Shown here piece after piece: positions 15,439-41,810 of a stretch of DNA of 47,876 bases. Source of the DNA: Clostridia bacterium. GTDB taxonomy: Bacteria > Bacillota > Clostridia > Christensenellales > Borkfalkiaceae. Within the stretch, counting starts at the first letter, position 1; each line of letters starts with the position of its first letter. The DNA lies in contig JAFTSN010000008.1 of NCBI GenBank assembly GCA_017467275.1, positions 1-47,876 on the forward strand, written 5' to 3'. Both the position numbers and the translations under genes were made by a program. The notes under the pieces are model-generated. The model was given only the letters and a program-made list of their open reading frames with translations, ran no database searches and was not told the origin of the DNA.

Positions 15439-15444
15439 ATTTCT

Positions 15445-19206: not shown

Positions 19207-19207
19207 G

Positions 19208-21897: not shown

Positions 21898-21908
21898 CTT
21901 TTCTCCTT

Positions 21909-24900
21909 TTATCTCGTCTTTTTCTTGAGAATAACGCCTGCGCTAAGAAGGGTAAGCATCGCGAGCACCGCGCCCGAAACGGAGCCGCCGCAGGAACCGC
22001 AACCTTTCTTTTCCTTGCCGCCCTGCTCGCCGCCTTGGCTTCCTCCGTTGCCGCCGTTCTCGCCCGAGCCCGTGCCGCCTGTGCTACCTGATTGAACGGT
22101 GACCTTAAACGTCGCCGAGAAGCCGTCCTTGGAAACGGTGATCGTCTTTTCGCCCGCCGTCATCGAATCGAGATCGGATACGGCATATTCGCTTCTCTCC
22201 AAAAGCTTGCTCGTGCCGTCGCTGTATTTTTCAACGACTACAAGCCCCTCAAGATCAAGCGCCTCGCCGAGCGTATACGTCTTTTTCGTCGGCTCCGAGG
22301 TGATTTCGATTCCCGTCACCGTCGCTTCCGCCACCGTTTTTTCAATCTTCACCGTGATTTCGAGAAGCCTATACGTGTCCTCGATATTCCAGGGCAAGCC
22401 TCCCGTCGGAACAAAGGTGATCGTGCCGTAGCCATCGGCGTTAATACTGCCGAGCGTCCAACCACCCAAAAGCTGTTTCAATTCCCCCGTATTCAAACCG
22501 ACGGAAACGCCCTCCGCGGGGAACGCTTTCACAACCTGTGCCCTCGTCGTTCCCTCGGGGAACACCACAACGTTCTTATCCGCTGCCTGATCATAGGTCG
22601 CTTTTGGAAGCGCGAACACTTTCTCAATCTCCATATATTTGGGGTTCTTGAACGCGATATTCATAATCGAGCAGCCCTCGGTCACGATCTTGCCCGCCAT
22701 GATATCCGCTTCCGTGAGAATGGCATAGCGGTATTCCATATGCGTCGTTCTGCCCTTATCGTACATAATCATGATCTTGCCGTCGGGCAGATATGCAAAA
22801 TCGGGATAGGAGACCCACGTTCTGTGGTCAAGCTCGAGGCTATATTGCCAGGTCTGCCCGTTGTCCGTGCTGAGCATCGCCGTCATGTTCGAGCGGTTTC
22901 TGTTTCTGCCCACGCAACCCACGTATAAGAGGTTTCCGCTCGGAAGCTTGGTAAATACGAATCTTGACGAGCCGCAAAGCAACGTTTCGTTGTAGGAGCC
23001 GACTGTCCACGTTTTACCGCCGTCCGTCGAGAAGGATTGCTCCGTTCTGTCCTCGGTGCCGTCCACACGCTTCAAAAGCCAGAGCGTGCCGTTGGGAAGT
23101 TCCACAATCTTGCCCTCTGTGAACACCATCTGCGAAGCGGGATTTGCCGCCGCCTCGCCGATCTTTGTCGCCGTCATGCCCTTATCCGTGGATTTATAGA
23201 TATTTACAATCCCCGCATTCTTTTCGGGCTGATTGGAATTATAGATATAGCTACCGTCCGAAAGCTTGACGGGCTTGGAGTTCATCAAACCGTCCAAAAG
23301 GGAAATGGGCTCACTCCAAACAACATCCTTGATATTTTCCGCATCGGGATTTTCCGAATACATTCCGAATACGCGGATTTTTCCGCTACCGAATACCTTA
23401 TCCGCCTGTGCCCAGAAAGCCCAAAGCTTGCCGTCCACGTACCAAAGCTGATTGTCAAACGTTCTTCCCATCGTCTCGTAGGGATGATCGACAATGAAAT
23501 AGGGATTAAACGTTTTGCCGTTGTCGTCGCTGTAATAATAAATTACACAATTTTCAATCACAGGCTCCGTTCTGCCGCCCGTCATACCGCCGACGTAGAT
23601 TCTGCCGCTCGGCATAATTTCCAAAACGGGCGTTCCCATAAAGAGCCAATTCTTTTCAATGATATACTCGTCGGGAATATCGTCGAAGTATATCGCCTTT
23701 GCCGCGACCGTTCTGAAAATATCCTCGCTCTCCTCGCCGTCCACGATAATCATATACGCGCCCTGCACGGAAAGGGTTTCGCCCTCCTCAAACGCCTTTT
23801 CATAGAGGAAAAGTCTATCGTCCACACCGTCGATAAAGGACTCCATCGCCATCGTCTTTTTAAAGCCCTCGCCCGCAAAGCTCTTGCCCGCGAACACATA
23901 GATAACGCCCGACTCCTCGATCGTCGCGGTCACCGTCTCGCCCTCGTCGAAGAGGATATATTTCACGTTGTTTTTAATCAGCGCGGGTGCTCTTCCAAGG
24001 TTGATCGTCGGCGTGCCCTCATACATTTCGGGGCTCTTAAACGCTGCGTAGGTATCCTTTACGCAGAAAATATAGTTATCGTCGCCCGCATTAAGCGCCA
24101 CTTTAGCGATCACGGAATCGTCCTCGAAATTCGTGGGCGCGTCGGGGGTCAAGTAGTAAGAAGCCACCGCGCGCTTCAGTTCGATACCCGTTACCCCGAT
24201 TGCCGCGGTAAGCTCCGCGTCGGAGGCGGTAACCGTCCGCAAAAGGGTTATGGATTGATTAAATACGTCGGAAGCGTTTTCAACCTTTGCGCCCGCCGTC
24301 AGGACAAAGATATCCTTAATGCACAGCCGCTCGCCCTCATCGAGCGTAAAGACGGGCTTGCCGCCCTTATAATCGACGATAAGATACCCCTCGAAGCCGT
24401 CGGGGAGACTTACCTTTCCGTCCGTCAGCGTCAATTCGCTGACGTCGTCGATCACGGAAACGAGCGTCGCTTTCGTCGGCTTTTCGCCGTTGTCAAAAGA
24501 AATATCCAGCTCCATCGTTTCCATGGACTCGTTATACACGTAGAACGCGAGCCTTTCCGCATTGGTGGGGATTGCCGCGTTTAACGTCGCACTGCCTGCT
24601 GCGTCCTTGCCGTCGAGAGCGGCGCCCTCCGTGGGCACATACGTGTAATCGAGCGCGGAGGAAACAACGGGCGTGAACATCTGCGTTGCACCCGAAACGT
24701 TCGCCGTGTAGCCCGTTCTAGAGGAATTCAAAAGCTCGGCATAGAGCGTTGCGCTGTTTAAGAGCTCCAAAAGATTGCTCTTATCCGCATTCAGCGCGCC
24801 CTTGATAAGGCTCATTTTACCGAATTCGATATTAAAGCCGCTGGAGGTGGGCGTGTCGAGCGTGCCCTGCTGGGTGTTGGAAATGCCCTGTGAGCCCTGC

Positions 24901-26762
24901 GAAATAATAACCGCATTCGCCGCTTTATCCTTAGAAATCAGCCAATCGATGCTCGCAGTCGGAATAACCATGTACCCGTCGAAGCCCGCGGGAAGCTCCA
25001 CCCAGCTCCAAGCGTTCTCGGGATAGATCGCCTTATTAAAGGAGCCGTCCTTATTAAAGAGATAGACTTCTTTCGCCTGATTGATTCCCGAGCGGGTCTG
25101 GAAGGTCTTTGCCGCGTCATAGAAGAAGAACTCGAATTTACCCGCGTTGAACGCGTGATCGGCGATACGGATCGAGAAATACGCGGTGTCCGTCAAATCG
25201 CTCGTGTTGCCGTTCACATAAAGATAGTGATATTCCTGATCCTCGGGGTTGGAGATCTGGAAATTCAGACCGTCCACCCTGCCGTACACGACCTCTGCCG
25301 TACTCTTATAATCGTAACTTTTCATAACCTTATTGATCACCAATCCGTAGTTAGAAGGAACCGTGAGCTCGAAATCACCAAGCCCGTCGAGAGCGGTTGC
25401 TGAAGTAAAGCATTCAAACGCCGCCGCGCCGTTGATAAGCATCTTGAAATCAGTGGAAGCGGAAAGCCCGCCCTCAGCGATTGTAACCGTGCCAAAATCG
25501 GCATTCACGAGCTTGCCCCCGTTCCAATTCCCGTGGAATCCGAAAGAGAGCGCCTCGTTTAAATGGCTTTGAAGCGCCAAGTAGTTCGCATTGGCGATTC
25601 CTGCAACGTCGAACACGATATACCCGACGAAGCCCGCGGGCGGCGTAATCGACCAAGAAAGCTTCTGCGAGCCAACCAAATTATAGTTCATATCGACAAA
25701 ATATGCCGTCGCGCCGTTTAAAATATAATTTCCGCCGTCATTCATAATCTGCGGCTCGAAAATACAGCCCTCGCCGCCACGGTCATAGTACTGCGCGATG
25801 ATCGTCTTGCCCGCAAAGCCCGCAGCATATTTTTGAGTTTGCAGTCTCTGATACTGCGCGGTATCATCGATCAACGTCTGGCGGTAGTTCACGCCCTCGA
25901 AGTAGCCGCCTACCCCGCCGTCGACCGTTTCAACGCTCCAAACGCTTTCAGTCATGCCGTTCAGCCAACCGCACTGCGTGCAGGCTTTTTCCGAATCGAA
26001 CGAACCGAAATTCCCCACGTAGCCGCCCCAAGCGTAATTTCCCGTGTAATTATACTTTAACCCCTCGCTTATTTCCACCTCAGAGGAATCTAACACTCTC
26101 GTAACCGTTCCGTCCGTCTTTTCAAGATAGACATCGCCGAACACCAGATTCGTGTTTTTATGGGTAACCTTTTCCGTTCTGAAACCGACCGTTTTCAAAC
26201 TCTGCGTTTGAGCGAGCGAGGAGCCCTGCGCTTTGGCAAGGGTCAGATCTTTAGCCGAGTTACCGTAGTTATCCAAATTGGCGCGCATATACCAATTGTC
26301 CAGCTCGAACGAATAATACGCTCTGCCCGCCATCCCCCTGCCGCCGTCGGGATATAAGCCAAACCAAGAGCTGGCGTTAGTGCTCGAAACGGACGAGAGA
26401 GAGGAAAGCGTTCTCGCCGTCTTATACTGCCCCGTCTTATCGCCCGCGCCCATATACTCATAGTAGTTCCCGTTCGCGTCGACCAATAAGGGGGTGAAAT
26501 AGTTGTCGGCATCAAGCGTGATGTCGAAAATAACGCTCTTCACATCCGTCAGTGCGGTTACCTCGGAGAGATTGACGTATAACGAAGCGTTCGACTCCCC
26601 CTCCGTACCCGTCGCCACAACGGAAATTCCTCCAACGGTGGAATAATCCGTCTCTTCCGCCGCTTTTGCCGTTCCCGACAGCGCGATTCCGAACGCCGTG
26701 CAGAGCGAAAACGCCCCGACGAGCGCAGAAACCGCCAACTTTTTCGCGAAATTCTTTCCCAT
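21909..26762 (-). CDS. Giant BNR/sialidase-like modular surface protein, paralogue 1
   Basis: 1617 residues. Signal to about residue 34 (GTAKA/AEE). Residues about 40-830 carry at least four beta-sandwich modules, marked by recurring P-x-G-F-x-G-Y-[IM]-V motifs (TPPAGFVGYIV, LPAGFDGYMV near 596, LPDGFEGYLIVDYKGG near 794) and FGFHGNWNGG near 410. The BNR propeller is about 1040-1375, with GGRTEP near 1060 and Asp boxes SDDNGKTF, STDGGKTW and STDNGQTW. Next come a beta domain, an Ig-like domain (about 1475-1560), a Gly/Asn-rich linker and the tail KKGCGSCGGSVSG, hydrophobic stretch, KKKTR. Probably a cell-wall or membrane-anchored glycan-binding enzyme. It is 12 nt downstream of its paralogue, with ribosome site AAGGAG and ATG. 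Confidence 0.8.
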   Translation of the reverse strand: MGKNFAKKLAVSALVGAFSLCTAFGIALSGTAKAAEETDYSTVGGISVVATGTEGESNASLYVNLSEVTALTDVKSVIFDITLDADNYFTPLLVDANGNYYEYMGAGDKTGQYKTARTLSSLSSVSSTNASSWFGLYPDGGRGMAGRAYYSFELDNWYMRANLDNYGNSAKDLTLAKAQGSSLAQTQSLKTVGFRTEKVTHKNTNLVFGDVYLEKTDGTVTRVLDSSEVEISEGLKYNYTGNYAWGGYVGNFGSFDSEKACTQCGWLNGMTESVWSVETVDGGVGGYFEGVNYRQTLIDDTAQYQRLQTQKYAAGFAGKTIIAQYYDRGGEGCIFEPQIMNDGGNYILNGATAYFVDMNYNLVGSQKLSWSITPPAGFVGYIVFDVAGIANANYLALQSHLNEALSFGFHGNWNGGKLVNADFGTVTIAEGGLSASTDFKMLINGAAAFECFTSATALDGLGDFELTVPSNYGLVINKVMKSYDYKSTAEVVYGRVDGLNFQISNPEDQEYHYLYVNGNTSDLTDTAYFSIRIADHAFNAGKFEFFFYDAAKTFQTRSGINQAKEVYLFNKDGSFNKAIYPENAWSWVELPAGFDGYMVIPTASIDWLISKDKAANAVIISQGSQGISNTQQGTLDTPTSSGFNIEFGKMSLIKGALNADKSNLLELLNSATLYAELLNSSRTGYTANVSGATQMFTPVVSSALDYTYVPTEGAALDGKDAAGSATLNAAIPTNAERLAFYVYNESMETMELDISFDNGEKPTKATLVSVIDDVSELTLTDGKVSLPDGFEGYLIVDYKGGKPVFTLDEGERLCIKDIFVLTAGAKVENASDVFNQSITLLRTVTASDAELTAAIGVTGIELKRAVASYYLTPDAPTNFEDDSVIAKVALNAGDDNYIFCVKDTYAAFKSPEMYEGTPTINLGRAPALIKNNVKYILFDEGETVTATIEESGVIYVFAGKSFAGEGFKKTMAMESFIDGVDDRLFLYEKAFEEGETLSVQGAYMIIVDGEESEDIFRTVAAKAIYFDDIPDEYIIEKNWLFMGTPVLEIMPSGRIYVGGMTGGRTEPVIENCVIYYYSDDNGKTFNPYFIVDHPYETMGRTFDNQLWYVDGKLWAFWAQADKVFGSGKIRVFGMYSENPDAENIKDVVWSEPISLLDGLMNSKPVKLSDGSYIYNSNQPEKNAGIVNIYKSTDKGMTATKIGEAAANPASQMVFTEGKIVELPNGTLWLLKRVDGTEDRTEQSFSTDGGKTWTVGSYNETLLCGSSRFVFTKLPSGNLLYVGCVGRNRNRSNMTAMLSTDNGQTWQYSLELDHRTWVSYPDFAYLPDGKIMIMYDKGRTTHMEYRYAILTEADIMAGKIVTEGCSIMNIAFKNPKYMEIEKVFALPKATYDQAADKNVVVFPEGTTRAQVVKAFPAEGVSVGLNTGELKQLLGGWTLGSINADGYGTITFVPTGGLPWNIEDTYRLLEITVKIEKTVAEATVTGIEITSEPTKKTYTLGEALDLEGLVVVEKYSDGTSKLLERSEYAVSDLDSMTAGEKTITVSKDGFSATFKVTVQSGSTGGTGSGENGGNGGSQGGEQGGKEKKGCGSCGGSVSGAVLAMLTLLSAGVILKKKTR
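22084..22505 (-). repeat. Near-identical C-terminal coding block, copy 1 (giant paralogue 1)
   Basis: This block (last part of the beta domain plus the Ig-like domain) matches 26941-27362 with fewer than a dozen base changes by eye, an offset of 4857 bp. The propellers of the two proteins have diverged much more. It suggests recent gene conversion or purifying homogenisation. Confidence 0.8.
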
Positions 26763-26774
26763 AAATTTATCTCC

Positions 26775-29700
26775 TTATCTTTTTTTCTTCAAAACTACGC
26801 CTACGCCAAGAAGGGTAAGCATCGCGAGAGCCGCGCCCGAAACGCTACTACCGCAACCTTTCTTTCCCTTCCCGCCCTGCTCGCCGCCTTGGCTTCCTCC
26901 GTTGCCGCCGTTCTCGCCCGAGCCCGTGCTGCCGCCCGTGCCACCTGATTGAACGGTGACCTTAAACGTCGCCGAGAAACCGTCCTTGGAAACGGTGATC
27001 GTCTTTTCGCCCGCCGTCATCGAATCGAGATCGGATACGGCATACTCGCTTCTCTCCAAAAGCTTGCTCGTGCCGTCGCTGTATTTTTCAACGACTACAA
27101 GCCCTTCAAGATCAAGCGCCTCGCCGAGCGTATACGTCTTTTTCGTCGGCTCCGAGGTGATTTCGATTCCCGTCACCGTCGCTTCCGCCACCGCTTTTTC
27201 AATCTTCACCGTGATTTCGAGAAGCCTATACGTGTCCTCGATATTCCAGGGCAAGCCTCCCGTCGGAACAAAGGTGATCGTGCCGTAGCCATCGGCGTTA
27301 ATACTGCCGAGCGTCCAACCACCCAAAACCTGTTTCAATTCCCCCGTGTTCAAGCCGACGGAAACGCCCTCTGAAGGGAACGCTTTCACGACCTGCGCCC
27401 TCGTCGTTCCCTCGGGGAACACCACAACGTTTTTATTCAACTCCTGATCATAAGTCGCTTCGGGAAGTGCGAACACCTTCTCAATCTCCATATATTTGGG
27501 GTTCTTGAACAGGATATTCATAAGCGAAGAGCCCTCGCTCACAATCCGCCCCGCCTTGATATCTGCCTCGTCGATGATCGCCGTTCTCAGCTCCATTTGG
27601 GTCGTTCTGCCCCTGTCGTATAAAACCATGATCTTGCCGTCGGGCGTAATGGTGTAATCGGGATAGGATATCCACGTTCTGTGATCGAGCTCGATCGAAT
27701 AGGGCCACGTTTTGCCGTCGTCCTCACTCAAAAGCACCTTGATATGCGAACGGTTTCTCTGTGTGCCGAAATTACCGATATAGATCAAATTGCCGCTCGG
27801 CAATCTGTCGAATACGAAACGGGAGGACCCGCAAAGCAAATCGTCGTTGAATTGACCGACCGTCCACGTTTTACCGCCGTCTATGGAGAACGACTGCTCC
27901 ACTCTGTTTTCGTTGTTGCCGTCCACGCGCTTCAAAAGCCAGAGCGTACCGTTTTTCATTTCGACGATCTTCGGCTCGGGGAACACGAACGAAGCGCTCG
28001 GATTGGGATCCGCTACGCCGATCAACGAAGCCGTCATGCCGCCGTCCGTCGATTCGAACACGTGCACCTTTCCGTCGCAAACGTCGTTATAAAGAGAGGT
28101 CGAATAGACGATCTTTCCGTTTTGGAGACGGTTGGGTTTTTCACTCAAAACACCCTTTATAAGATACACGGGCTCGGTCCACTCGATATCCGCAAGATTT
28201 TGCGCGTCGGGATTGTCCGTATAGCACATATAGGTCGCCATTTGCGACTGCCCCTTATCCGCCTGCGTGAAGAAATACCAGAGCCGCCCGTTGTCGTACC
28301 AGAACATCGGATCATAGATCCGCGCCATCGTTTCGTAAGGGTGGTCGCAGAGCATATAGGGAGAGAACGTCTTTCCGTTATCGTCCGAAGCGTAGGTAAT
28401 AACAACGTTTTCGACGACGGGCTCCGTCTTACCGCCCGTCATAGCCGAAACGAACATTCTTCCGCCGCTCGTCATGGCGATCGTGGGAATCCCTTGGAAG
28501 ATAAAGTTTTCCAGGAGATATTCGTCGGGAATATCCTCAAAGAACATCTGCTTTGCGGGAACGGTAAGCGCGATAAACGGACTAACCTCGCCGTCGATCA
28601 CGATAAAGTAAGCGCCACTTAAAGCAAGCCTTTCGCCCGTCTCGCACGCCTTTTTAAAGCAGAACACTCTGCCGTCGATACCCTCGAAAAAGGATTCCAT
28701 CGCCATGGTCTTGGTAAAGCCCTCGCACTCGAACGTCTTGGGCGCAAAGACGTAGACCATGCCCGCCTCAAGCACCTCGAGATTGACCGTCTCGCCCTCG
28801 TCCGCAAGCACGTATTTGGCGTTGTTTTTCACAAGCTGAGGCGCCAAAGCAAGCTCGACGGTCGGCGTGTCCTCATACATTTCGGGACTCTTGAACACGG
28901 GATAGCTGTCCCTTACCGCAAAAATATAATTGTCGTCGTCGAGAAGTCCCACCTTGGCAAGACTCGCTTCCTGCTCGAAATTACTGGGAGCGTCAGGCGT
29001 GCTATAATAGGAATTTACCGCGCGCTTGATCGAAAGCCCGTTCGCCGTGAAGACTGCGGCGATCTGCTCATCCGTCGAGGACACCGTTCTCAAAACGGCA
29101 AGGGATTTCGTGAACACCTCGTTTCCGTTTTCAACGGTAACGCCTGCGGCGAGCGAGAAAATATCCGTAATCCCGAGCCTCTCTCCCTCGTCGAGCGTAA
29201 AGACGGGCTTGCCGCCCTTATAATCGACGATAAGATACCCCTCAAAGCCGTCGGGAATACTGATCTTGCCGTCCGTCAGACTTTGATTATACACGTCGTC
29301 GACCACCGATATGAGCGTCGCCGTTTCGGGATAAGTACCGTCCGAATAGGATAAAGCAATCTCCATGCTCTCCATGGATTCGTTATAGATATAAAACGCA
29401 AGTCTGTCTGCATTCGCCACGATCGCGCTTTCCAGCGTTGCGCTACCCGCGCTTTCTTTCGCGTCCAGAACAATTCCCTCAACGGGCATATAGCTGCAAT
29501 CCATTAAGGAGCCGACCACGGGCGTAAACATATACGTCGCCCCCGACACCTGTGCGGAACGTCCGCTTCTCGAAGTGCTTAACGTATCCGCATAAACCGT
29601 ACCGTTTTCAAGCAATTCGAGAAAGTTGGATTTCGCCGCGTCGAACGTGCCGACGAGCGATTTCATCTGCCCGAATTCGATATTAAAGCCCGAAGATAAA

Positions 29701-31613
29701 GGGGTGTCCGTCGTACCCTGCTGATTATTCGAAATTCCTTGCGTACCCTGCGAAATTACCGTCGCATAAACGGCTTTCGACTTATCGAGGATCCAATCGA
29801 TACTCGCGGACGGGATAACCATGTATCCGTCGAATCCCGCAGGAAGCGTTACCCAGCTCCATTCGTTATCGGGATAGATCGACTTATTAAAAGAGCCGTC
29901 CTTATTGAAAAGGTAGACCTCTTTCGTCTGATTGATCCCCGAGCGGGTATTAAAGGTCTGTTGCGCGTCGTAGAAGAAGAACTCGAACGAGCCCGAATTA
30001 TAGGCATGATCGGCAACGCGGAGAGAGAAATAGTCCGTCTCCGTCAGATCGGAGGAATACCCCTTCACGTACATATAATGATACTCTTCATCCGTGGGAT
30101 CGCTGATTTGGAAATTCAAACCGTCCAATCTGCCGTATACAACCTCGTTGGAGCTTTTAAAATCGTAGCTTTTCATAACCTTATTCAACACCAAGCCGTA
30201 CTGCTCGGAAAAAGTCAAGCCCTGCGCGTTCAGCCCGTCGGGCATAGCCGAAGAGGCAAAGCTGTAATACGCCTCAGCACCGTTGATCAAGGAAAAGAAA
30301 TCCGTCTGTGCGGAAAGTCCGCCCTCGGCAACCTTAATCGCGCCTAAATCGGCGTTAAAAAGCTTACCGCCGTTCCAATTTCCGTGGAAGCCGAAATTGA
30401 GTAGCTCGTTCGCATGATCGGCAAGCGCGAGATATTCCGCGTTCGTACACCCCGCGGTATCCAATACGATATACCCGACGAAACCTGCGGGAGGCGTGAT
30501 TGCCCAAGAAAGCCGCTCCGAATCGACGAGATTACCGCTCATATCCACGAAATAAGCCGTCACGCCGTTCAAAGTGGCATACGTCGTGCCGTTGACGATC
30601 TTCGGCTCGAACTTGCAAGCCTCGCCGCCGCGATCGTAGTACTCCAGAATGATCGCGCTGTTCTCGAAGCCGTCCGCATATGCGGGCGTCGCGAATTTCT
30701 GATATTGCATACTTTCGGGCAGACTTGTCTGACGGTAGTTCATGCCCTCGAAATAGCCGTCTACGCCGCCGTCGCTCGTCGCAATATCCCACCCGTTTTC
30801 GGTCACGTTATTCAGCCAACCGCATTGCGTGCATTTTTTATCCGCGTCGAACACGCCGAAATTCCCCACGTAGCCGACCCAAGCATAATTACCCGTATAA
30901 TTATGCTTCAAATCCTCGCTCATTTCCACCTCGGAGGAATTCACGATACGACTGATCGTTCCGTCCGTCTTTTCGAGATAGACGTCGCCAAACACCAGAT
31001 TCGTGTCTTTATGGGTAAGCTCCGTCGTTCTGAAGCCGACCGCTTTCAGGCTCTGTGCCTTTGTTAAAGCCGAGCCTTGAAGCGCGGCAAGCTCCAAATT
31101 CTTATTGGGATTACCGTAGTTATCCAAATTGGCGCGCATGAGCCAATCCTCGACGGCAAACGAATAATACGCTCTGCCATCCAAGCCTCTGCCCGCCTCG
31201 GGAAGAAGTCCGAACCAAGCCCCTGCGGTAACGCTCGAAGCCTCGGAAAGCAAGGATAAGCTTCTGCCGACCTTGTAGCTCCCCGTCGCCCCGTTCGCAC
31301 TCGCGATTTCGTAATAATTCCCGTTCGTATCGATCATAAGGGGCGTGCAATAATCGTCCGCCTCCAACGTGATATCGAAAATAATGCTTTTTACGTCCGT
31401 CAGCGCGGTTACCTCGGGGAGATTGACGTATAACGACATATTCTTATCCCCCTCCGTACCCGTCGCCACAACGGAAATTCCGTCGACGGAGGAATAATCC
31501 GTCTCTTCCGCCGCCTTCGCCGTTCCCGACAGCGCGATTCCAAGCGCCGTGCAGAGCGAAAATGCTCCAACAAGAGCAGAAATCACAAACTTTTTCGCAA
31601 AATTCTTTCTCAA
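26775..31613 (-). CDS. Giant BNR/sialidase-like modular surface protein, paralogue 2
   Basis: 1612 residues with the same layout as the neighbouring giant: signal peptide, sandwich modules with FGFHGNWNGG, TPPAGFVGYIV, LPAGFDGYMV and PDGFEGYLIVDYKGG, BNR propeller with GGKTEP near 1061 and Asp boxes SDDNGKTF, SIDGGKTW and SEDDGKTW, Ig-like domain, Gly/Asn-rich linker, and tail KKGCGSSVSG, hydrophobic stretch, KKKR. The start codon is TTG at 31613 behind the same AAGGAGATAAATT that serves the ATG of paralogue 1. No better ATG is nearby, so initiation may be weaker. The pair arose by tandem duplication. Confidence 0.8.
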   Translation of the reverse strand: MRKNFAKKFVISALVGAFSLCTALGIALSGTAKAAEETDYSSVDGISVVATGTEGDKNMSLYVNLPEVTALTDVKSIIFDITLEADDYCTPLMIDTNGNYYEIASANGATGSYKVGRSLSLLSEASSVTAGAWFGLLPEAGRGLDGRAYYSFAVEDWLMRANLDNYGNPNKNLELAALQGSALTKAQSLKAVGFRTTELTHKDTNLVFGDVYLEKTDGTISRIVNSSEVEMSEDLKHNYTGNYAWVGYVGNFGVFDADKKCTQCGWLNNVTENGWDIATSDGGVDGYFEGMNYRQTSLPESMQYQKFATPAYADGFENSAIILEYYDRGGEACKFEPKIVNGTTYATLNGVTAYFVDMSGNLVDSERLSWAITPPAGFVGYIVLDTAGCTNAEYLALADHANELLNFGFHGNWNGGKLFNADLGAIKVAEGGLSAQTDFFSLINGAEAYYSFASSAMPDGLNAQGLTFSEQYGLVLNKVMKSYDFKSSNEVVYGRLDGLNFQISDPTDEEYHYMYVKGYSSDLTETDYFSLRVADHAYNSGSFEFFFYDAQQTFNTRSGINQTKEVYLFNKDGSFNKSIYPDNEWSWVTLPAGFDGYMVIPSASIDWILDKSKAVYATVISQGTQGISNNQQGTTDTPLSSGFNIEFGQMKSLVGTFDAAKSNFLELLENGTVYADTLSTSRSGRSAQVSGATYMFTPVVGSLMDCSYMPVEGIVLDAKESAGSATLESAIVANADRLAFYIYNESMESMEIALSYSDGTYPETATLISVVDDVYNQSLTDGKISIPDGFEGYLIVDYKGGKPVFTLDEGERLGITDIFSLAAGVTVENGNEVFTKSLAVLRTVSSTDEQIAAVFTANGLSIKRAVNSYYSTPDAPSNFEQEASLAKVGLLDDDNYIFAVRDSYPVFKSPEMYEDTPTVELALAPQLVKNNAKYVLADEGETVNLEVLEAGMVYVFAPKTFECEGFTKTMAMESFFEGIDGRVFCFKKACETGERLALSGAYFIVIDGEVSPFIALTVPAKQMFFEDIPDEYLLENFIFQGIPTIAMTSGGRMFVSAMTGGKTEPVVENVVITYASDDNGKTFSPYMLCDHPYETMARIYDPMFWYDNGRLWYFFTQADKGQSQMATYMCYTDNPDAQNLADIEWTEPVYLIKGVLSEKPNRLQNGKIVYSTSLYNDVCDGKVHVFESTDGGMTASLIGVADPNPSASFVFPEPKIVEMKNGTLWLLKRVDGNNENRVEQSFSIDGGKTWTVGQFNDDLLCGSSRFVFDRLPSGNLIYIGNFGTQRNRSHIKVLLSEDDGKTWPYSIELDHRTWISYPDYTITPDGKIMVLYDRGRTTQMELRTAIIDEADIKAGRIVSEGSSLMNILFKNPKYMEIEKVFALPEATYDQELNKNVVVFPEGTTRAQVVKAFPSEGVSVGLNTGELKQVLGGWTLGSINADGYGTITFVPTGGLPWNIEDTYRLLEITVKIEKAVAEATVTGIEITSEPTKKTYTLGEALDLEGLVVVEKYSDGTSKLLERSEYAVSDLDSMTAGEKTITVSKDGFSATFKVTVQSGGTGGSTGSGENGGNGGSQGGEQGGKGKKGCGSSVSGAALAMLTLLGVGVVLKKKR
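26941..27362 (-). repeat. Near-identical C-terminal coding block, copy 2 (giant paralogue 2)
   Basis: Partner of 22084-22505. Similarity falls off abruptly on the propeller side (near 27362). Confidence 0.8.
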
Positions 31614-31642: not shown

Positions 31643-33421
31643 TTAGCCGTTGTTTTTAAGCAAATACCAGTTGTCGCCGTTGGCGCCGATGGGATCGCCC
31701 GAATAGGTACCGTCCGCATTTTTGAGCGTGGGCGAAACATATGAATCCTGATAGGCAACCCAGCCTTTTTCAACGCCCGCCGTCTTCTTTCCCGCCGCAT
31801 ACGCTTCGGCATAGAACGCGATCACGTCCTCGAGATGCCGTCTCTTCATAAGATCGATGGCGTTATTATATTCCTTCAGCGCGCCGCCCTCTTTATCCGC
31901 ATTGATCATGAGCGCTAGCTTTTCGCTCCAAACCGTGAGGCAGTTGCTCTCGTAGTTGATAACGTCGATATACTTCTTGCTCGTCTTATCAAGCTTGGGC
32001 CAAGCAAGCTGATAGCGATAAGAATAGGGCATAAGCGGCCGTTTTAAGTTCTTCACATAGAGCTCGTAGTCTAAAAGCGCATTCGTCGGCGTGAGCGGAA
32101 CAATATACGCAGGGTTATACATGACGTTGAGCCGCTCAAGCCCGTAGTTGTTGAGCGAGGTGTTATCGGGCTGTTTACCGATGAGATATTTCTGCGTCCA
32201 TTCAATCTCCGTCTTTTCCTCGTTCGCCCACTTCCACGTGTCGTTTTCGATACCGAAATTCGTGAGCCGCTGTCCCTCCTCCGAATACAGGAAGTCAAAC
32301 ACCTTGATGACGAGATCGGGGCGCTCGCAATCCCTTGTGATCATGTTCAGAAGCCATCCGTAACCCGTGATATCCTGCAAAATAGGATCGTCGCCCGCGT
32401 CGTTTCTTACGATCAAGGGGATGTATTCGATATTATTGTTTCCACGATATGCGGCAGTAAAATTGGAGGCATAGTTCTGCGGCGTGACGAGGGTCACAAA
32501 CGCCTCCCCTCTTGAAATGATGCCGCCGATCGAATCGGAGTCGTTGCTCGTCGAGGAGGTGAGTCCTGCTCTATTCAGCTCGTTTAAGTATTCGATCGCT
32601 TCAAAATACTGCTCGGTCATACGCGAATCCACGTAGTTGCCGTTTTCGTCCTCAAACGGTGCGGCAAAATACTGCGAAAGCCACGTAACCGACTGGCACC
32701 CCTCGAGCGTGAATTCGTCTAAAAGCAACGGCGTGACCTTCTGTCTCGGACTTGCAAAATTTTTCTCCACCCTTTCGAGCGCGTCCTTTAAGCCCGCTTT
32801 CGTCGTGATATCCTTGGCGTCGGGCTGGGAGACGTACCATTCGTACCAATCCTTTCTCACAAGCATGGCGCCGTTGGGCTCCCACTTTGTGTCCTCGTCG
32901 ACGTATTTTTCCGAATACCCGCAGTTCGGGAGACCGTAGAGATGATCGCCCACCGAATAATAATTATAGATATCCTCCTCGATTCTGTTTGTCAGCGAGG
33001 GTGCCCAACGCTTGGCAAGCTCGTCGATCGGGTAAACGTAGCCCTCGAGCGCGAGCTGTGCATGATAGGACTGATACGCCTTTACGGAGATAACGTCGGG
33101 CATCTCGTCGCTTTGCACAAGCAGATTGAGCATGGTTGAATCGTTCACGACGGGCGAAGTGAAGCGGATCGTAACGCCCGTGATCTCCTTGACCTTCTTA
33201 CCGATATCGTCATAGCTCGTATTTTCATAGGTAAACCAAGGATAGTCCACGTACCAATCGATAACAAACTCCTCGTCGTTATAGAGCCAGCTGTCCTTAT
33301 CGGCAGGCGTATTCTCGATATCGGGATACACGAGCCCCTCATCTTTTGAACCGCAAGCCGAAAGTGTCAAACTTCCCACCGTCATAATTAGGCTTAAAGC
33401 CAAAACCAAAAACTTTTTCAT
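31643..33421 (-). CDS. ABC transporter extracellular solute-binding lipoprotein (LipO type)
   Basis: 592 residues. Signal peptide with lipobox LSAC, Cys23. The rest is a family 1-type binding protein (VKEITGVTIRF, SDEMPDVISVKAYQ, GLPNCGYSEKY, FDFLYSEEGQRLTNFG), of the large class that accompanies LplB/YtcP permeases and captures oligosaccharides. Strong ribosome site GGAGG. It lies 18 nt after the second permease gene. The ligand is presumably the oligosaccharide released by the GH and BNR proteins of the operon. Confidence 0.93.
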   Translation of the reverse strand: MKKFLVLALSLIMTVGSLTLSACGSKDEGLVYPDIENTPADKDSWLYNDEEFVIDWYVDYPWFTYENTSYDDIGKKVKEITGVTIRFTSPVVNDSTMLNLLVQSDEMPDVISVKAYQSYHAQLALEGYVYPIDELAKRWAPSLTNRIEEDIYNYYSVGDHLYGLPNCGYSEKYVDEDTKWEPNGAMLVRKDWYEWYVSQPDAKDITTKAGLKDALERVEKNFASPRQKVTPLLLDEFTLEGCQSVTWLSQYFAAPFEDENGNYVDSRMTEQYFEAIEYLNELNRAGLTSSTSNDSDSIGGIISRGEAFVTLVTPQNYASNFTAAYRGNNNIEYIPLIVRNDAGDDPILQDITGYGWLLNMITRDCERPDLVIKVFDFLYSEEGQRLTNFGIENDTWKWANEEKTEIEWTQKYLIGKQPDNTSLNNYGLERLNVMYNPAYIVPLTPTNALLDYELYVKNLKRPLMPYSYRYQLAWPKLDKTSKKYIDVINYESNCLTVWSEKLALMINADKEGGALKEYNNAIDLMKRRHLEDVIAFYAEAYAAGKKTAGVEKGWVAYQDSYVSPTLKNADGTYSGDPIGANGDNWYLLKNNG

Positions 33422-33439
33422 GTTTCCTCCGTGATTTTT

Positions 33440-34336
33440 TTATTCTTTAATCGCGCCCGCCGTCGCGCCGCTTGCAAAATGCTTTTGCAAGAAAGGATAA
33501 CAAACGAGAACGGGCACCGTGCTGACGATAATCGCCGCAAACGAGATTGTTTTTGCCGTGACCGTTTCAAGGATCCCGGGCGGAAGCGTACCGCCGCCAA
33601 TCCCCGTGGTAGGCACGGTCGATTTATTGATAATCCGCATGAGTACGTATTGAAGCGGATATAAATCGGGGTCGGTCACGTAGTACATAGCGTCCATGTA
33701 GCTATTCCAATGCCCGACGATCGACCAAAGCGCGACCGTTGCGAGAATGGGCTTACTCAAGGGCAGAATAATCGAAAACAAAATCCGATACTCCCCCGCA
33801 CCGTCCAGCCGCGCAAACTCTGCAAGACTTTCAGGAATCTGTGAAAAGAACGTCATTAACACGATCATGTTGTAGACGGAAAACAGCGACGGAATAATAT
33901 AGACCATAAAATTATTCAAAAGCCCGATCGTCTTTAAGAGGACGAAATAGGGAATGATACCGCCACCGAAAAACATGGTCACCATCATGAACCAGTAGTA
34001 GATTTTTCTGCACTTTAAAAGCTTGTTGCTCATGCCGAATGCCACGACGCTCGTAAACAGCACGCTTGTCACCGTGCCCAAAAGCGTTCTGCCGATCGTA
34101 ACGATATAACCGCGCCAGATCGCCTCGTCTGCGATGACCATATAGTAGTTATCGAGGGTCCACACTCTCGGCCAGAAATATACGCCACCAAACGTGTAGT
34201 CTAGCCCCTGATTAAACGACCCGACGAGCACCGCCCAAAGCGGAAAGAGCGTGATAAAGCAGAAGATTATCATAAATGCAATATTGAGATAATCGAACCA
34301 ATTATTACGGTTTAATTTACTTTTTCTCTTTTCCAT
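33440..34336 (-). CDS. Carbohydrate ABC transporter permease, YtcP-like
   Basis: 298 residues with six membrane segments of the CUT1 MalG type. The cytoplasmic EAA loop is LAEFARLDGAGEYRILFSII followed by LPLSKPI. Its ATG overlaps the stop of the LplB-like gene by 1 nt (TGATG), with AAAGGGG upstream. It forms the membrane channel with the LplB-like subunit. No ATP-binding subunit is encoded in the window; these systems usually borrow a shared MsmK/UgpC-type ATPase from elsewhere. Confidence 0.93.
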   Translation of the reverse strand: MEKRKSKLNRNNWFDYLNIAFMIIFCFITLFPLWAVLVGSFNQGLDYTFGGVYFWPRVWTLDNYYMVIADEAIWRGYIVTIGRTLLGTVTSVLFTSVVAFGMSNKLLKCRKIYYWFMMVTMFFGGGIIPYFVLLKTIGLLNNFMVYIIPSLFSVYNMIVLMTFFSQIPESLAEFARLDGAGEYRILFSIILPLSKPILATVALWSIVGHWNSYMDAMYYVTDPDLYPLQYVLMRIINKSTVPTTGIGGGTLPPGILETVTAKTISFAAIIVSTVPVLVCYPFLQKHFASGATAGAIKE

Positions 34337-35268
34337 CAGTACAGCCCCTTTCCCGTCAGTTTTTTGGAGATAAAATTGCTGCCGATCAGCAGGAAACAGG
34401 AGATCACCGATTTAAACACGCCAATCGCCGTCGCATACTGATAATTCCCCTTTTGAATACCGTATTGAAGCACCATCGTGTCGATCACTTGACTCTTGGA
34501 GATATTGTCGGGGTTTTGGAACACGAGAATGTGCTCCACGGAGCTATTTAAAATGCCACTCGTGGACAATAAAAGGAAGGTCACGATCGAGGGCGCAATC
34601 CCGGGCAACGTAACGTGCAAAATCCGCTGAAAACGGTTTGCCCCGTCGATCTCTGCCGCCTCGTATAAATCCCTTGAAACGCCGCTGATCGCCGCAAGAT
34701 AGATAATCGAGCCCCAGCCCACGCCTTTAATGAGCGACGTGATTATGATAAGCCCCCAAAAAGCGTCTGGATCACCCGCAATTTCAAGCGGTTTCTTGAT
34801 CAAGCCAAGCCGAAGCAGAAAATCGTTGAGCGCACCCGTGTCCGTGTTGATGAGAGTCAAAACCATCCCGCCGAACACAACCCAGCTCAAAAAGTGCGGC
34901 AGATAACTGATCGTTTGCACGGTCCGTTTGAACGTGGGCTTTTTCAGCTCACTGATCAAAATTGCAAACAAAATGGGCGAGGGAAAATTAATGAGCATCA
35001 TGAGTGAATTCAGCCCGAGCGTGTTCCATATAACGTTCTTGGACTCGCTGTCCGCAAGGAAGAGCTCGAAATTTTCAAAGCCGACGAAATCCGCCTCGAA
35101 AATGATTTTCATAACGTCGATCTGCCGCGCGGATTCGTCCTTGAATGCAAGAATGATTCCAAACATAGGCACGTAGCAGAAGATTGCCACAAATAAAATG
35201 CCCAGCCAGACCATCGTCTGATGCTCTATTTCATTTTTTCTGATTTTAAACCTTTTTGTCTTTTCCAT
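34336..35268 (-). CDS. Carbohydrate ABC transporter permease, LplB-like
   Basis: 310 residues with six membrane segments. The EAA loop reads YEAAEIDGANRFQRILHVTL followed by PGIAPS. LplB-like proteins pair with YtcP-like permeases and a lipoprotein to import complex sugars. It begins 3 nt after the glycosidase gene, so the two are cotranslated. Confidence 0.94.
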   Translation of the reverse strand: MEKTKRFKIRKNEIEHQTMVWLGILFVAIFCYVPMFGIILAFKDESARQIDVMKIIFEADFVGFENFELFLADSESKNVIWNTLGLNSLMMLINFPSPILFAILISELKKPTFKRTVQTISYLPHFLSWVVFGGMVLTLINTDTGALNDFLLRLGLIKKPLEIAGDPDAFWGLIIITSLIKGVGWGSIIYLAAISGVSRDLYEAAEIDGANRFQRILHVTLPGIAPSIVTFLLLSTSGILNSSVEHILVFQNPDNISKSQVIDTMVLQYGIQKGNYQYATAIGVFKSVISCFLLIGSNFISKKLTGKGLY

Positions 35269-35271
35269 AGT

Positions 35272-36822
35272 TTACGCCACCAACACTCTGTAAACGCCCG
35301 TCGCCTCAACCTTGAGCTTCCCGCCCTTAACGGAAACGCTCTTTTCTTTGTGCCAAACGCCGTCCATGGAGTAGTACCCCTTTTCGCAATAGAGCGCGTC
35401 CGCATTGATCGTGAACGTGTCTGCCTTGGTCGAAGCAAGGGTCACAACCTTTCCGCGCACCGCGGCATACGCGATTCCCCGCTCCGTCGTGGCATGGGTT
35501 ATACTAATCCCGTCCGCCGTCAGGGTTTGCGTGACCTTATCCTGTCCGCCGCTCGTCATGAGATTGAAACCAAGCACCTTCCCCTCGCCCGCAAGCACGA
35601 GATCAAGGAAGCCGTCCCGATAGATTTTATTTGCGTCAATCAACCTCTGCGTGTGCGGCTTTTTGGAAAAATCGGTGTGAAACACGCCGCGAAGCTCCCA
35701 ATCAACAAGCTCGGGCGAATAGGTTGTCACAACCTCGAACACCTCGTAGCCCGCGCCCTTTGTGAAAGCCAAAAGCTCCAACTGATCGTTATTTTCATAT
35801 TCGCCGCCGTTCTCCGCAATATGCGGGAAATTCCCCTCAAGCGCGGCAAGCACATCAAGCTGAGCGGATATCTTGTTTACCTTGTTGTTGTAAGGATCAA
35901 GACCAACGTAGTCAATCCCCGCCATTTTGGGAAGTTCCTCGGAAAGATAGGACAAATATGCCCGATCCGTGAGATTCACGCGCGTATAACACTTATATTT
36001 GGAATCCTTAACGACCTGTCCCAGCTCGTCGAGGTGCTTAATCAGTTCCGCACAAACCTCGTCGGTGGTGTACTCGAAATTCTCGGGATAGTCCTCCTCG
36101 TGGGGAATGAGCAACATATCGGGCTCGTTTTCAACCTGAATCCCGACGACGGTGTGCCGCCCGCCATGCATACGGTCGTAGGCATAAATTCCGTCCATCA
36201 TAGCTTGCATAGCGAGACGTTCCCTTTCAAGCGTCGCTGCACAATTTGGCATGAGCATCCACGTTTTTCCCAGCCAACCATTGTACATATTACGATTTAT
36301 GGCTTGATATGTATCCTGATCATTCATGACGTATTGGGGGATATATCCCGCGACCGAAACGCCGCACATCCACGATCCAAACCATAAAAGCTCGAGCTTC
36401 AATTCATACTTTTCGCAGTACTCGATATATTTTTCAACGTATTCAACCGAATAGACGCCCTTCGCCGTCTCGATATCCGACCAGCAAATGGGAATCTGCA
36501 CCATCGTGACGTTCATCTCCCGCGCTAGCTTGAAATACTGATCGAGCTCGTCGATAGTCTTTCCCTCGAGCTGCATAAAAAAGTCTGTTCTAAGCTGACC
36601 TCCGAGCATCAAGAGGGGCACGCCGTCGGAGACGAGATATTTCCCCGTCTCGTCCAAGCCGCTATAAGGCGAATTGCCCTCATAGGCGGCAGCCCCGTCG
36701 GCAGTATAGCTTTTTTCCGTAAATTCGACGGGAAGCGAATACTTTCCCCCGTCGCTTTCAACCCCGCCGCAAGCGGCGGCAAAAAGAAAGATGGAAGCCA
36801 AAAGACACTTAAAATACTTCAT
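35272..36822 (-). CDS. GH35/GH42-like beta-galactosidase-type lipoprotein
   Basis: 516 residues. Signal with lipobox FAAAC, Cys18. The TIM barrel begins with MLGGQLRTDFF and AREMNVTMVQIPICWSDIE, as in GH35/GH42 and DUF4978 proteins. The probable acid/base is Glu233 in VENEPD, and the probable nucleophile is Glu337 in HIAENGGEYENN. A C-terminal beta domain follows. It would cleave a terminal beta-linked sugar at the cell surface before uptake by the adjoining transporter. It is the first gene of the ten-gene operon, right behind the AraC-type promoter site. Confidence 0.8.
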   Translation of the reverse strand: MKYFKCLLASIFLFAAACGGVESDGGKYSLPVEFTEKSYTADGAAAYEGNSPYSGLDETGKYLVSDGVPLLMLGGQLRTDFFMQLEGKTIDELDQYFKLAREMNVTMVQIPICWSDIETAKGVYSVEYVEKYIEYCEKYELKLELLWFGSWMCGVSVAGYIPQYVMNDQDTYQAINRNMYNGWLGKTWMLMPNCAATLERERLAMQAMMDGIYAYDRMHGGRHTVVGIQVENEPDMLLIPHEEDYPENFEYTTDEVCAELIKHLDELGQVVKDSKYKCYTRVNLTDRAYLSYLSEELPKMAGIDYVGLDPYNNKVNKISAQLDVLAALEGNFPHIAENGGEYENNDQLELLAFTKGAGYEVFEVVTTYSPELVDWELRGVFHTDFSKKPHTQRLIDANKIYRDGFLDLVLAGEGKVLGFNLMTSGGQDKVTQTLTADGISITHATTERGIAYAAVRGKVVTLASTKADTFTINADALYCEKGYYSMDGVWHKEKSVSVKGGKLKVEATGVYRVLVA

Positions 36823-36851
36823 TTGCTTTTATCCTTATTTTATTTGTCTAT

Positions 36852-36916
36852 ATTATATAATATATAAGTTACGATTTGTGGCTAACCCGATATAAAAACT
36901 AACGATTTTCGGCTAA
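36852..36916 (-). promoter_or_regulatory. Activator-dependent promoter of the ten-gene operon
   Basis: TATAAT at 36857-36852 has no recognisable -35 box. Instead the site TTACGATTTGTGGCTAA (plus-strand reading, 36869-36885) covers that position, 12 bp from the -10. A related copy, TAACGATTTTCGGCTAA (36900-36916), lies 31 bp further up in the same orientation, next to the stop of the AraC fusion gene. Direct repeats three helical turns apart fit an AraC-type dimer. Confidence 0.65.
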
Positions 36917-36917
36917 A

Positions 36918-38513
36918 TTAACCTTTTATGGCGTTGCAAATCTTAAGCATCACGGCATAGATCTGATTGCGAAGCTCGGGACGAGTATTGATTTTAAGAA
37001 AACTCCCCTTTCCACCGTCCGACACAAGAAGTTTTTCCCCCGAGAGAGAAAACGCTCTGTTCTCATAAAGGGTGAACATCCCGCCATGCCCGAAAACGGC
37101 ATACATCAGCGCAACCATATCCATGACGTTGCAATCGTTCTCCTCCGCTTTCAGCATAGCGAAAAAGGGATTGCGTCTGTTCTCGTCGATGACGTCGGAA
37201 GAGTCGATCGTGATAGGCGCGGACGAATCCAAAACGGCAATGGGAAGCTCCGCTAAAGAAATTTTAAGCGCTTCCGTCTCCCGCTCCGCTTCAACCACAA
37301 TGGCGGGAACGATGATCAAGCTTACCTTTTCTAAAACGAGGCGCCGCCCTGTTTCGTCTTTGAGAAGCTCAACAAGATCGGTTAACCCGCCCGTGAATAC
37401 CATCGTGACAAAGTCCTCGCATAAGGCAAGCTTTTGCTTGAACAACTCCACGCATTCTTTTCGCCCGCCGCCGACCTCAAGCTGTTCGTTACCGTAGAAA
37501 AAAGCGGCATTTCTGAAATTATCCAAAGCCGTTGGCTCTGCATGCGTCAATCCTGCGCAGAGGAGCTCGATATAACCTCTTTTATGCATGACGTGTGCCA
37601 ACGCCAAGGAAAGCCCCGCAGACGCTCCGTCCGTGTCCACGTCCAAAATAACGGGTACCTTATTGCGCCGTTTCACATCGTTTGCATTCAAAATCACGCC
37701 CCACTCAAAATTATCGTTCATACTACGATATTTTCTCGGCGACATACCTGCCATATTTGAAAACCATTCGCAAAAGCGGATACTGTTCGCATAGCCGCAC
37801 CGAAGCGCGATATCGTGAATTTTCATGTCCGATAAGAGGAGCATTTTCTTGGCATAGTCGAATCGGAGCCCCTGCTGATAAGCATAGAGGGTCATGCCCG
37901 TCTCCTCGATAAAAATATGACGAAACCGATCATAGGAATATCCAAACTCCTCGGCTAAAATCGTGTAGTTAATCTTCTTGAACGCGTAACGCTTAATATA
38001 ATCCTTCACGACCCCCGAAAACTCGGCGTCATATTCTTTTTTACTCTTTTTATCCTTGGAAATTAAATTGAAAACGCTGATCGAAAGGTGCAATAAAAGC
38101 TCGTTGATTTTAGCGGCGTTATCCGCCTTTTTGCTGTGCATTTCAAACCATAGCGCATTGATTTCCAACATATACCCCTTAATTTTTGCAAAAATGGGCG
38201 CGTTTTTCGCCGTCTTTTTATAAAACAGCGCCTTTTCCGTGTGTTCCATGGGCAGATCGAGCTGATTGCAGACGATCTTGGTCTTTTCCTTTGCATATTC
38301 GCCGTGATAAAGATTGGGCGGAATAATGAGCAGAGAATCGGCGTTGTAGTTAAAATTATAAATCGTCTCGCCGTAGACGGTGGAAAGCCCCTTCCCTTCA
38401 AGATAATAGACGATCTCGAAATTCTCATGCTTATGCTTTAAAACCTGATCGGTCGAATTATGAGAATAGTTAATGGATTCGACGTTATAGGCGTCGATTT
38501 TTTTACCGCTCAT
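36918..38513 (-). CDS. AraC-family regulator fused to a degenerate nucleoside-hydrolase-like domain
   Basis: 531 residues. Residues about 15-90 form a cupin-like arm (HKHENFEIVYYLEGKGL), 165-265 the AraC DNA-binding domain (INYTILAEEFGYSYDRFR, IHDIALRCGYANSIRFCEWF, GMSPRKYR), and about 285-531 a nucleoside hydrolase fold (VPVILDVDTDGASAGLSLAL, FTGGLTDLV, NVMDMVALMYAVFG). The metal motif DTDxGxDxDDA of active enzymes reads DVDTDGASAGL, losing the later aspartates, so the domain is probably a ligand sensor. The start at 38513 has AAAGGAGG; an in-frame ATG at 38603 lies in the upstream terminator and is rejected. It sits between its two likely targets. Confidence 0.82.
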   Translation of the reverse strand: MSGKKIDAYNVESINYSHNSTDQVLKHKHENFEIVYYLEGKGLSTVYGETIYNFNYNADSLLIIPPNLYHGEYAKEKTKIVCNQLDLPMEHTEKALFYKKTAKNAPIFAKIKGYMLEINALWFEMHSKKADNAAKINELLLHLSISVFNLISKDKKSKKEYDAEFSGVVKDYIKRYAFKKINYTILAEEFGYSYDRFRHIFIEETGMTLYAYQQGLRFDYAKKMLLLSDMKIHDIALRCGYANSIRFCEWFSNMAGMSPRKYRSMNDNFEWGVILNANDVKRRNKVPVILDVDTDGASAGLSLALAHVMHKRGYIELLCAGLTHAEPTALDNFRNAAFFYGNEQLEVGGGRKECVELFKQKLALCEDFVTMVFTGGLTDLVELLKDETGRRLVLEKVSLIIVPAIVVEAERETEALKISLAELPIAVLDSSAPITIDSSDVIDENRRNPFFAMLKAEENDCNVMDMVALMYAVFGHGGMFTLYENRAFSLSGEKLLVSDGGKGSFLKINTRPELRNQIYAVMLKICNAIKG

Positions 38514-38556
38514 AGTTCCTCCTTTTCCATATAATCCTACGTCTCTTAAACGGGTT

Positions 38557-38597
38557 AAAAAGCTCCCGATAATAGATTGCCTATCGGGAGCTTTTTT
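38557..38597 (-). terminator. Terminator of the 46-aa peptide / 964-aa protein unit
   Basis: AAAAAGCTCCCGATA (38557-38571) pairs perfectly with TATCGGGAGCTTTTT (38582-38596). It lies just past the stop of the 964-aa gene. Confidence 0.85.
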
Positions 38598-38612
38598 GTT
38601 CATTGCTCAATT

Positions 38613-41507: not shown

Positions 41508-41644
41508 AACGTACCTCCCGCAATAGGCTCGTCGAAAATATCGTCGTCCATATCCGTTCCGCCGCTCACACGCACAATACAATGAATCGTGCCGTTTTCG
41601 ACGAGCGTTATGAACTCTATTTCCGGTCCAACGTATTTTTTCAT
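41504..41644 (-). CDS. 46-aa peptide overlapping the start of the 964-aa protein gene
   Basis: ATG 41644 has AGGAGG 10 nt upstream and reads MKKYVGPEIEFITLVENG, ending GGTL with TGA. Its stop overlaps the ATG of the next gene by 4 nt (ATGA), the classic sign of coupled translation. It is the first gene behind an activator-type promoter. One Cys, an acidic run DMDDD, no signal peptide and no transmembrane segment. Short peptides opening MKKY.xPEIEF are familiar from clostridial surface loci, but I know no function. A leader for translational control or a modified-peptide precursor are both possible. Confidence 0.7.
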   Translation of the reverse strand: MKKYVGPEIEFITLVENGTIHCIVRVSGGTDMDDDIFDEPIAGGTL

Positions 41645-41678
41645 AGAAAAATTTCCTCCTATTTTTATCTATGCTATT

Positions 41679-41739
41679 ATTATACCCCCAAAAAGTTACG
41701 ATATGTGGCTAACTCTGCCGTTTTTATAATTTTAGCCAC
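41679..41739 (-). promoter_or_regulatory. Activator-dependent promoter of the 46-aa/964-aa unit
   Basis: TATAAT at 41684-41679 without a -35 consensus. The site TTACGATATGTGGCTAA (41696-41712) lies 12 bp from the -10, as in the operon promoter at 36852, and differs from that site at one base. TTAGCCAC at 41732-41739 is an inverted partner of GTGGCTAA. Confidence 0.65.
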
Positions 41740-41810
41740 TTTCAGTAATATTTTTAAAAAATACGCCGTTCTCGCTTGAATTTTGTTGCATTTCTATTGA
41801 AATACGCTCT

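Follow-up and report, generated by a model that had tools for sequence, protein, structure and literature searches.

In Ada, an AraC-type helix-turn-helix (HTH) and an enzyme (a methyltransferase) are located in one chain, which works as a self-methylation switch. In the GATase1-type AraC regulators, a glutamine-amidotransferase-like domain is found at the N-terminus, in place of the cupin. GbdR and CdhR belong to this type, and the passages used here from PMC5806209 describe them as AraC-family regulators in which one domain has an enzyme family as its relatives. The passages used from PMC4666351 describe NrtR and Bacteroides AraR as transcription factors in which a Nudix-family domain with an impaired catalytic signature binds the ligand, and AraR as a regulator of sugar use in gut bacteria. 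As far as these passages go, the general design of a regulator combined with an enzyme-derived domain is already known from NrtR/AraR and from the GATase1-type AraC regulators.

Here, we describe a gene that joins an AraC regulator to a degenerate nucleoside-hydrolase (NH) half. It is located in a 47,876-nucleotide stretch of DNA from a Clostridia bacterium, the whole of which we call the window, and encodes the protein P0001 (Table 1). The start is an ATG at 38513, preceded by AAAAGGAGGAACT, a good ribosome-binding site, and the frame runs to a stop at 36918 through sequence without any N. A cupin-like arm occupies the N-terminal part of the protein, followed by an AraC-type HTH (residues 186-264; HTH_18 at 68.9 bits, Pfam cut-off 33.6), a linker (about 265-285) and the degenerate NH half (about 286-531). 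An earlier note on this DNA had named a cupin arm, and the N-terminus does resemble a cupin, but Pfam gives it only weak scores that do not reach the cut-offs (19.1 against 27.2 bits for Cupin_2; 18.3 against 21.1 for AraC_binding). AraC_binding exceeds the 21.1-bit cut-off in two intact sister fusions, L067 (28.8 bits) and L073 (27.6 bits). The terminator-like hairpin upstream of the gene is absent from the output of a consensus terminator scan, whose limit of 8 its loop exceeds.

Table 1. Features of the fusion locus and of the putatively controlled operon, in window coordinates.
Feature	Coordinates	Strand	Basis
AraC-NH fusion gene, P0001, 531 aa	36918..38513	(-)	One open frame, domain matches, NH profile, hhalign
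NH half plus 8 linker residues (residues 278-531 of P0001)	36921..37682	(-)	Alignment A5, profile search
Perfect 15-bp hairpin followed by T residues, terminator-like, between upstream gene and fusion gene	38557..38596	(-)	
Operator-like TTAGCCACATATCGTAA, 11 nt before TATAAT, ahead of 46-codon ORF and gene upstream of fusion	41696..41712	(-)	
Second operator-like block TTAGCCGAAAATCGTTA, a direct repeat located 31 bp farther upstream	36900..36916	(-)	
First operator-like copy TTAGCCACAAATCGTAA, 11 nt before TATAAT (36857-36852), ahead of GH operon	36869..36885	(-)	
First gene of operon (GH), DUF4978 protein, GH35-like below NCBIfam cut-off	35272..36822	(-)	Family models
Two ABC permeases (BPD_transp_1) and putative solute-binding protein	31643..35268	(-)	Pfam; position
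Three BNR_2 (sialidase-like) proteins	20026..31613	(-)	Pfam
GDSL hydrolase, then 589-aa and 366-aa proteins	16340..20029	(-)	Pfam
Separate nucleoside hydrolase P0004, last gene of operon, with intact DTDIGIDCDDA, EWN and SWD	15445..16410	(-)	Pfam, motifs

The Pfam NH model (PF01156) gave no match for the whole of P0001 at E ≤ 0.1, nor for the NH half alone at E ≤ 1, so the NH homology needed a separate test. With a profile of 51 NH sequences, from which all fused proteins had been excluded, the NH half scored 40.8 bits, compared with 4.4 bits for the best of 1000 shuffles. hhalign aligned the NH half with alignment A3, which includes the sister NH half, over 243 columns at 98.1%, and PDB 1mas, an IU nucleoside hydrolase, aligned with the NH profile. 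These results confirm the earlier proposal that an AraC DNA-binding domain and an NH-derived half lie in one 531-residue frame. The signal was confined to the real frame, and the other two frames of the same strand gave none. Thus, a simple frameshift does not account for the damage and was rejected as the cause of the lost motif. With respect to PF01156, P0001 stays under the gathering score, is homologous by the closer profile, and does not carry the set of DTDxGxDxDDA, E-x-N and final D.

The active-site motifs were read in the light of the single-residue roles in the Crithidia enzyme, which was aligned with the NH profile. We used alignment A5, whose 54 rows comprise 52 of the 79 NH stretches extracted from 80 loci and two window proteins. 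When P0001 is set aside, this alignment has 14 columns with a polar residue or Trp conserved in 85% or more of the rows; P0001 keeps 4 of them, three aspartates near the start and D465, and each of the 53 other rows keeps a fraction of at least 0.857. The motif DVDTDGASAGL, pointed out earlier, is located at residues 291-301. MAFFT and HMMER placed its DVDTDGASAG differently: the DD pair reads A297/S298 in A5, the HMMER alignment would spare the first aspartate of the pair, and the second aspartate is lost in every alignment made. The E and N positions of E-x-N fall in a deletion, and the SW preceding the last D is replaced by VM (463-464). Relative to the sister, about 26 and about 20 residues are missing. 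D291, D293, D295 and D465 are the aspartates retained in the NH half. In the passages used from a docking study, the trypanosomal NH pocket residues include Asp10, Asp14, Asp15, Glu184, Trp185, Asn186 and Asp261 (PMC4660014). With E-x-N and the DD pair gone, the pocket for the enzyme's substrate would be largely lost as well. Judged by its sequence, the NH half cannot be a normal NH, and pocket residues are missing along with catalytic ones. Of the damage to the aspartate cluster stated in the earlier note, the loss of the paired aspartates is supported, and a dead NH half on an AraC regulator is well supported.

A second AraC-NH fusion, P0002 (581 residues), is located on another contig of the window's genome and carries DTDLGCDCDDA, EFN and SWD. 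Two further intact fusions were found among the best 80 of 250 confirmed NH relatives in a profile scan of genome contigs with alignment A4: L067, from uncultured Clostridia, and L073, from uncultured Firmicutes. Each exceeds the cut-off of the Pfam NH model. None of the 30 stretches matched in a first scan of genome contigs with the two-row alignment A2 was confirmed, nor were any of the 6 matched when viral contigs were scanned with P0004. The search for the same domain pairing, which the earlier note had suggested as a check in Clostridia genomes, thus led to three sister fusions, all with intact NH motifs. Since all three keep the site, the group is better called regulator-enzyme fusions, of which P0001 died.

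Chains spanning both halves were found in 1 of 396 genomes of the order, 1 of 391 of the class and 1 of 398 of the phylum, and this one genome was always that of the window. The family of G821 gave 2 such genomes among 300, namely those of L067 and L073. In these samples, at most 3 or 4 candidates were scored per genome, the others were judged by query range and frame length, and 7 loci were also read, so fusions may be missed in the counts. When 61 relatives were searched with P0001, fusions occurred only in the window's genome. No close ortholog of P0001 turned up.

The linker KYRxMNxxxxWGVxLN is common to P0001, P0002 and L067, and their AraC halves form one clade with support of 100/99 in an AraC tree. 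This tree was built from HTH frames of 240 to 420 residues, with short HTH matches, repeated entries and further copies of the fusion loci removed. A single fusion event is therefore the simplest reading for these three. L073 was placed outside four unfused rows in the tree and may represent a second, separate fusion event. In the tree, the AraC of G157 stands beside the fusion clade; in its genome, the gene that follows it is a separate one and encodes an NH with 42% identity to the NH of P0002.

Two other frames were rejected as AraC fusions. The 597-residue frame at L044 (1450-3240, minus strand, genome G397) has an FAD-dependent-oxidoreductase-like start followed by an NH domain without the first motif, and another oxidoreductase-like gene adjoins it; the frame may be a chimera, a deletion or a real fusion. 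The 502-residue frame at L176 was rejected on reading by eye. At L066:8687-10444 and L067:1032-2810, an FAD_oxidored (PF12831) gene is divergent to the intact fusions P0002 and L067, so that an oxidoreductase may recur together with NH and regulator as a module.

Next to the fusion gene is the operon that P0001 would control (Table 1). Intergenic gaps are at most 29 bp from the GH gene to P0004, and the gaps past P0004 are 118 and 135 bp. In agreement with the earlier note, the operon closes with a hydrolase gene, that of P0004, which has intact motifs and whose true start is probably near 16350. The putative solute-binding protein had no Pfam or NCBIfam match and was placed by position and look, and the 589-aa and 366-aa proteins had no Pfam family over cut-off. 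Past the NH gene, another AraC gene and a gene of the DHDPS family were observed (13410-15326, minus strand), with a promoter-like site before each. Two of the BNR proteins are very large and in tandem (21909-31613); a paralog with about 41% identity is located on contig C9 of the same genome (L194:4395-8999), beside an NH gene and a related AraC.

The direct copies of the operator-like block before the GH gene are TTAGCCRMAAATCGTWA, 31 bp apart. The 17-mer occurred 7 times in the window at up to 3 mismatches, compared with 2.02 expected, and 1 of 100 shuffles reached 7. Similar blocks, again 11 nt away from their TATAAT-like box, were found ahead of P0002, of L067 and of the G331 operon that begins with GH. 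The CG in its second part is common to the sites of the fused regulators and differs at unfused loci. We then counted the pattern TYARCCACA-N19-TAYAMT, which was partly read from the sites that it counts. In the window's genome (1.55 Mb), its four exact matches were confined to the two fusion loci, and a single-mismatch match was located before the operon of a third related AraC on contig C9. At up to one mismatch, nine loci gave 11 matches, including the sites from which the pattern came, compared with a mean of 0.1 and a largest count of 1 for 40 permuted patterns. When matching was loosened, the controls were weak: the window's genome gave 5 matches at up to one mismatch and 3 for the pattern read backwards, the 17-mer alone at up to two mismatches gave 6 and 6, and the window at up to two mismatches gave 2, a count that 4 of 100 shuffles reached. 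Six stretches were taken after the pattern was fixed: L219 and L221 had exact matches in the gap between AraC gene and operon, and L222 repeated the matches of L193. No match within one mismatch was found at L073/L223, L220, L224 or L068. The background was one match at up to one mismatch in 72 other NH loci (575,634 bases). This sole match (one mismatch; L080:3919-3952) comes from a MAG that bears the label Haloplasma contractile, and an NH gene starts shortly after it.

The candidate operator thus recurs with a fixed 11-nt spacing at related loci, and its position over the -35 region suggests activation. The earlier note had assigned P0001 to the operon that ends in the hydrolase gene, and this operon is its most likely target. 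Consensus promoters and terminators were not in excess at 36700-41800 (7 and 4, compared with 7.4 and 5.6 in shuffles) and were somewhat commoner at 13200-16500 (7 and 8, compared with 4.0 and 4.5). Rfam gave no match in 13000-42200. Past the operator at 41696, we also observed a 46-codon ORF with a good ribosome-binding site (41644-41504, minus strand); it comes before the next gene and overlaps the ATG of that gene (41507).

The window operon is syntenic with operons in G331 and G967, with identities of 62 and 64% for GH, 70-74% for the permeases, 70 and 69% for the binding protein, and about 50% (G331) and 49% (G967) for NH. Each of these two operons adjoins a divergent AraC gene that encodes fewer than 300 residues and has no NH half, with the operator block between them; the first block and its spacing are the same as in the window. 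These arrangements argue that the NH half is not needed as a sensor, and the regulator of this operon seems able to work without it. A separate NH-like gene was found in seven of nine neighbourhoods of unfused related AraC genes (G331, G967, G000:C9, G821:C34, G157, G939 and G839), that of G839 being only distantly alike, and no NH was found beside the AraC genes of G004 (by Pfam) or G1004 (in 11 kb). On the contigs of the three intact fusions, Pfam revealed no second NH; those of P0002 and L073 end about 7 and about 6 kb past the fusion. Among the loci examined, a fused NH occurs alongside a separate one only in the window, where the fused copy is the dead one. The simplest reading is that the pathway needs one live NH, which the sisters carry on the regulator and the window has as a separate gene.

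Taken together, we propose that P0001 is an AraC-type activator that would bind the 17-bp operator, which covers the -35 region and is separated from TATAAT by 11 nt. Its predicted targets are the operon that runs from GH through the ABC and BNR genes to NH and the gene upstream of itself. It would descend from a regulator-enzyme fusion whose sisters retain an intact NH site. The separate intact NH gene would supply the enzyme step in this operon, so that the fused copy was free to lose catalysis. The inducer would most likely be read by the N-terminal cupin arm, as in the relatives without NH. The dead NH half would most likely be kept as a non-catalytic accessory module, which either serves oligomerisation or tunes the regulator by binding a ligand or partner. 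We give about an even chance to this proposal of an activator with the cupin arm as its sensor and the dead NH half as an accessory module. For the NH half itself, we rank the accessory role as most likely, followed by a re-made receptor and then a relic.

The earlier note had taken the dead NH half for an effector-binding receptor of a nucleoside-like or glycosylamine compound of the pathway. Enzyme-derived sensor domains have a precedent in NrtR/AraR, the frame of the NH half has been kept open through heavy change, and an intact NH gene is located within the controlled operon, all of which would suit such a receptor. However, the loss of E-x-N and DD leaves little of the pocket that recognised the substrate, the two syntenic operons, in which the first operator block and its spacing are unchanged, are found beside AraC genes without an NH half, and the AraC half of P0001, with its cupin-like arm, evolves at a normal rate. 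We therefore consider a receptor unlikely, though it should be kept in mind. That the domain is a dead enzyme is supported by the conserved polar positions, 4 of 14 kept, but its conversion into a sensor is possible, unproven and not needed. The further suggestion that receptor and enzyme may recognise the same or consecutive compounds was not supported: E-x-N is gone together with the catalytic residues, and G331 and G967 have AraC genes without an NH half.

The two halves of P0001 have evolved at different rates. Relative to the sisters, its branch was 1.09-fold (0.76-1.48) for the AraC half and 4.54-fold (3.36-6.15) for the NH half in 60 bootstraps, with G157 as outgroup, 255 (AraC) and 237 (NH) gap-free columns, and P0001 placed beside L067. 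Constraint was lifted on the NH half only, with the AraC half at a normal rate. The very long NH branch (3.85, compared with 0.36 and 0.42), confined to a single lineage, would fit a decaying passenger without a present role, as would the two sizeable deletions. The hydrophobic core speaks on both sides. The fold markers GGLTDLV and MDMVALMYA are present, as the earlier note had stated, but the NH core is eroded, with 56 of 72 hydrophobic columns kept (0.78) and at least 0.89 in the control rows. Such erosion also fits slow decay; yet 0.78 stands against an overall hydrophobic fraction of 0.476 in this half.

The open frame also argues against a relic. About 246 codons of the NH half are free of stops, and codon-position bias is still visible in it. 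We simulated neutral drift from the NH halves of two sisters, with 200 copies each. After drift to 45% identity, 0 of 200 copies remained without a stop from either start; at 60% identity 0 and 1 of 200 were stop-free, and at 80% 18 and 14 of 200. A stop past residue 270 or so would leave an AraC protein resembling the unfused relatives, yet the frame is open, so something seems to keep the NH half. A relic is thus a rather doubtful explanation.

It is more doubtful still, in our judgement improbable, that the NH half of the intact sisters reports the state of the pathway through substrate occupancy or turnover, as a trigger enzyme, and that the dead half of P0001 docks with the live NH of the operon. 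If so, P0001 would carry a pseudo-subunit that couples the state of the enzyme to transcription. A remaining enzyme function with changed chemistry or another use of metal, to which the four retained aspartates and the aspartate left by HMMER at the first DD position might be credited, is very improbable given that the second DD aspartate is lost in all alignments, E-x-N is gone, and SW before the last aspartate has become VM.

The same regulator-enzyme fusion coexists with an intact and a dead site in one genome, and AraC genes without NH are found beside syntenic operons in two others. Separate genes, intact fusion and dead fusion form a natural series, which bears on the question of when a switch takes in an enzyme domain as a working part, and the predicted operator makes this question testable. 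A switch with a dead site and three sister switches with intact sites show, as far as sequence comparison can tell, an enzyme that was joined to a regulator and then lost its chemistry.

The earlier note had held that no regulator family of this design is described. This stands for the pairing itself, since no description of an AraC-NH fusion was found among the matches listed in the literature searched, but not for the general design, which NrtR/AraR and the GATase1-type regulators share. The literature searched also gave no description of NH together with sialidase and glycoside hydrolase clusters. Compared with the IU nucleoside hydrolases (PF01156; 1mas), P0001 is homologous along most of its NH half and differs in its missing active-site motifs and in falling below Pfam detection. 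Ada, whose NCBIfam model (NF011964) gave a weak HTH match, is a model for the intact sister fusions, with HTH and enzyme in one chain, and differs in that its enzyme is unrelated. P0001 is unlike the GATase1-type regulators in keeping a cupin-like arm and having the NH half added at the C-terminus; Pfam gave no match to an amidotransferase-like domain in P0001 at E ≤ 0.1, and the N-terminus resembles a cupin. P0001 and these regulators have in common, by the passages used from PMC5806209, an AraC regulator with a domain related to an enzyme family. Pfam gave no match to a Nudix domain with a winged helix in P0001 at E ≤ 0.1. Like NrtR and AraR, as the passages used from PMC4666351 present them, P0001 is a transcription factor with an enzyme-family domain of impaired catalytic signature. 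In the same passages, NrtR and AraR combine a Nudix fold with a winged helix and act as repressors, whereas P0001 combines NH homology with an AraC HTH and a cupin-like arm, and has sisters in which the enzyme site is intact.
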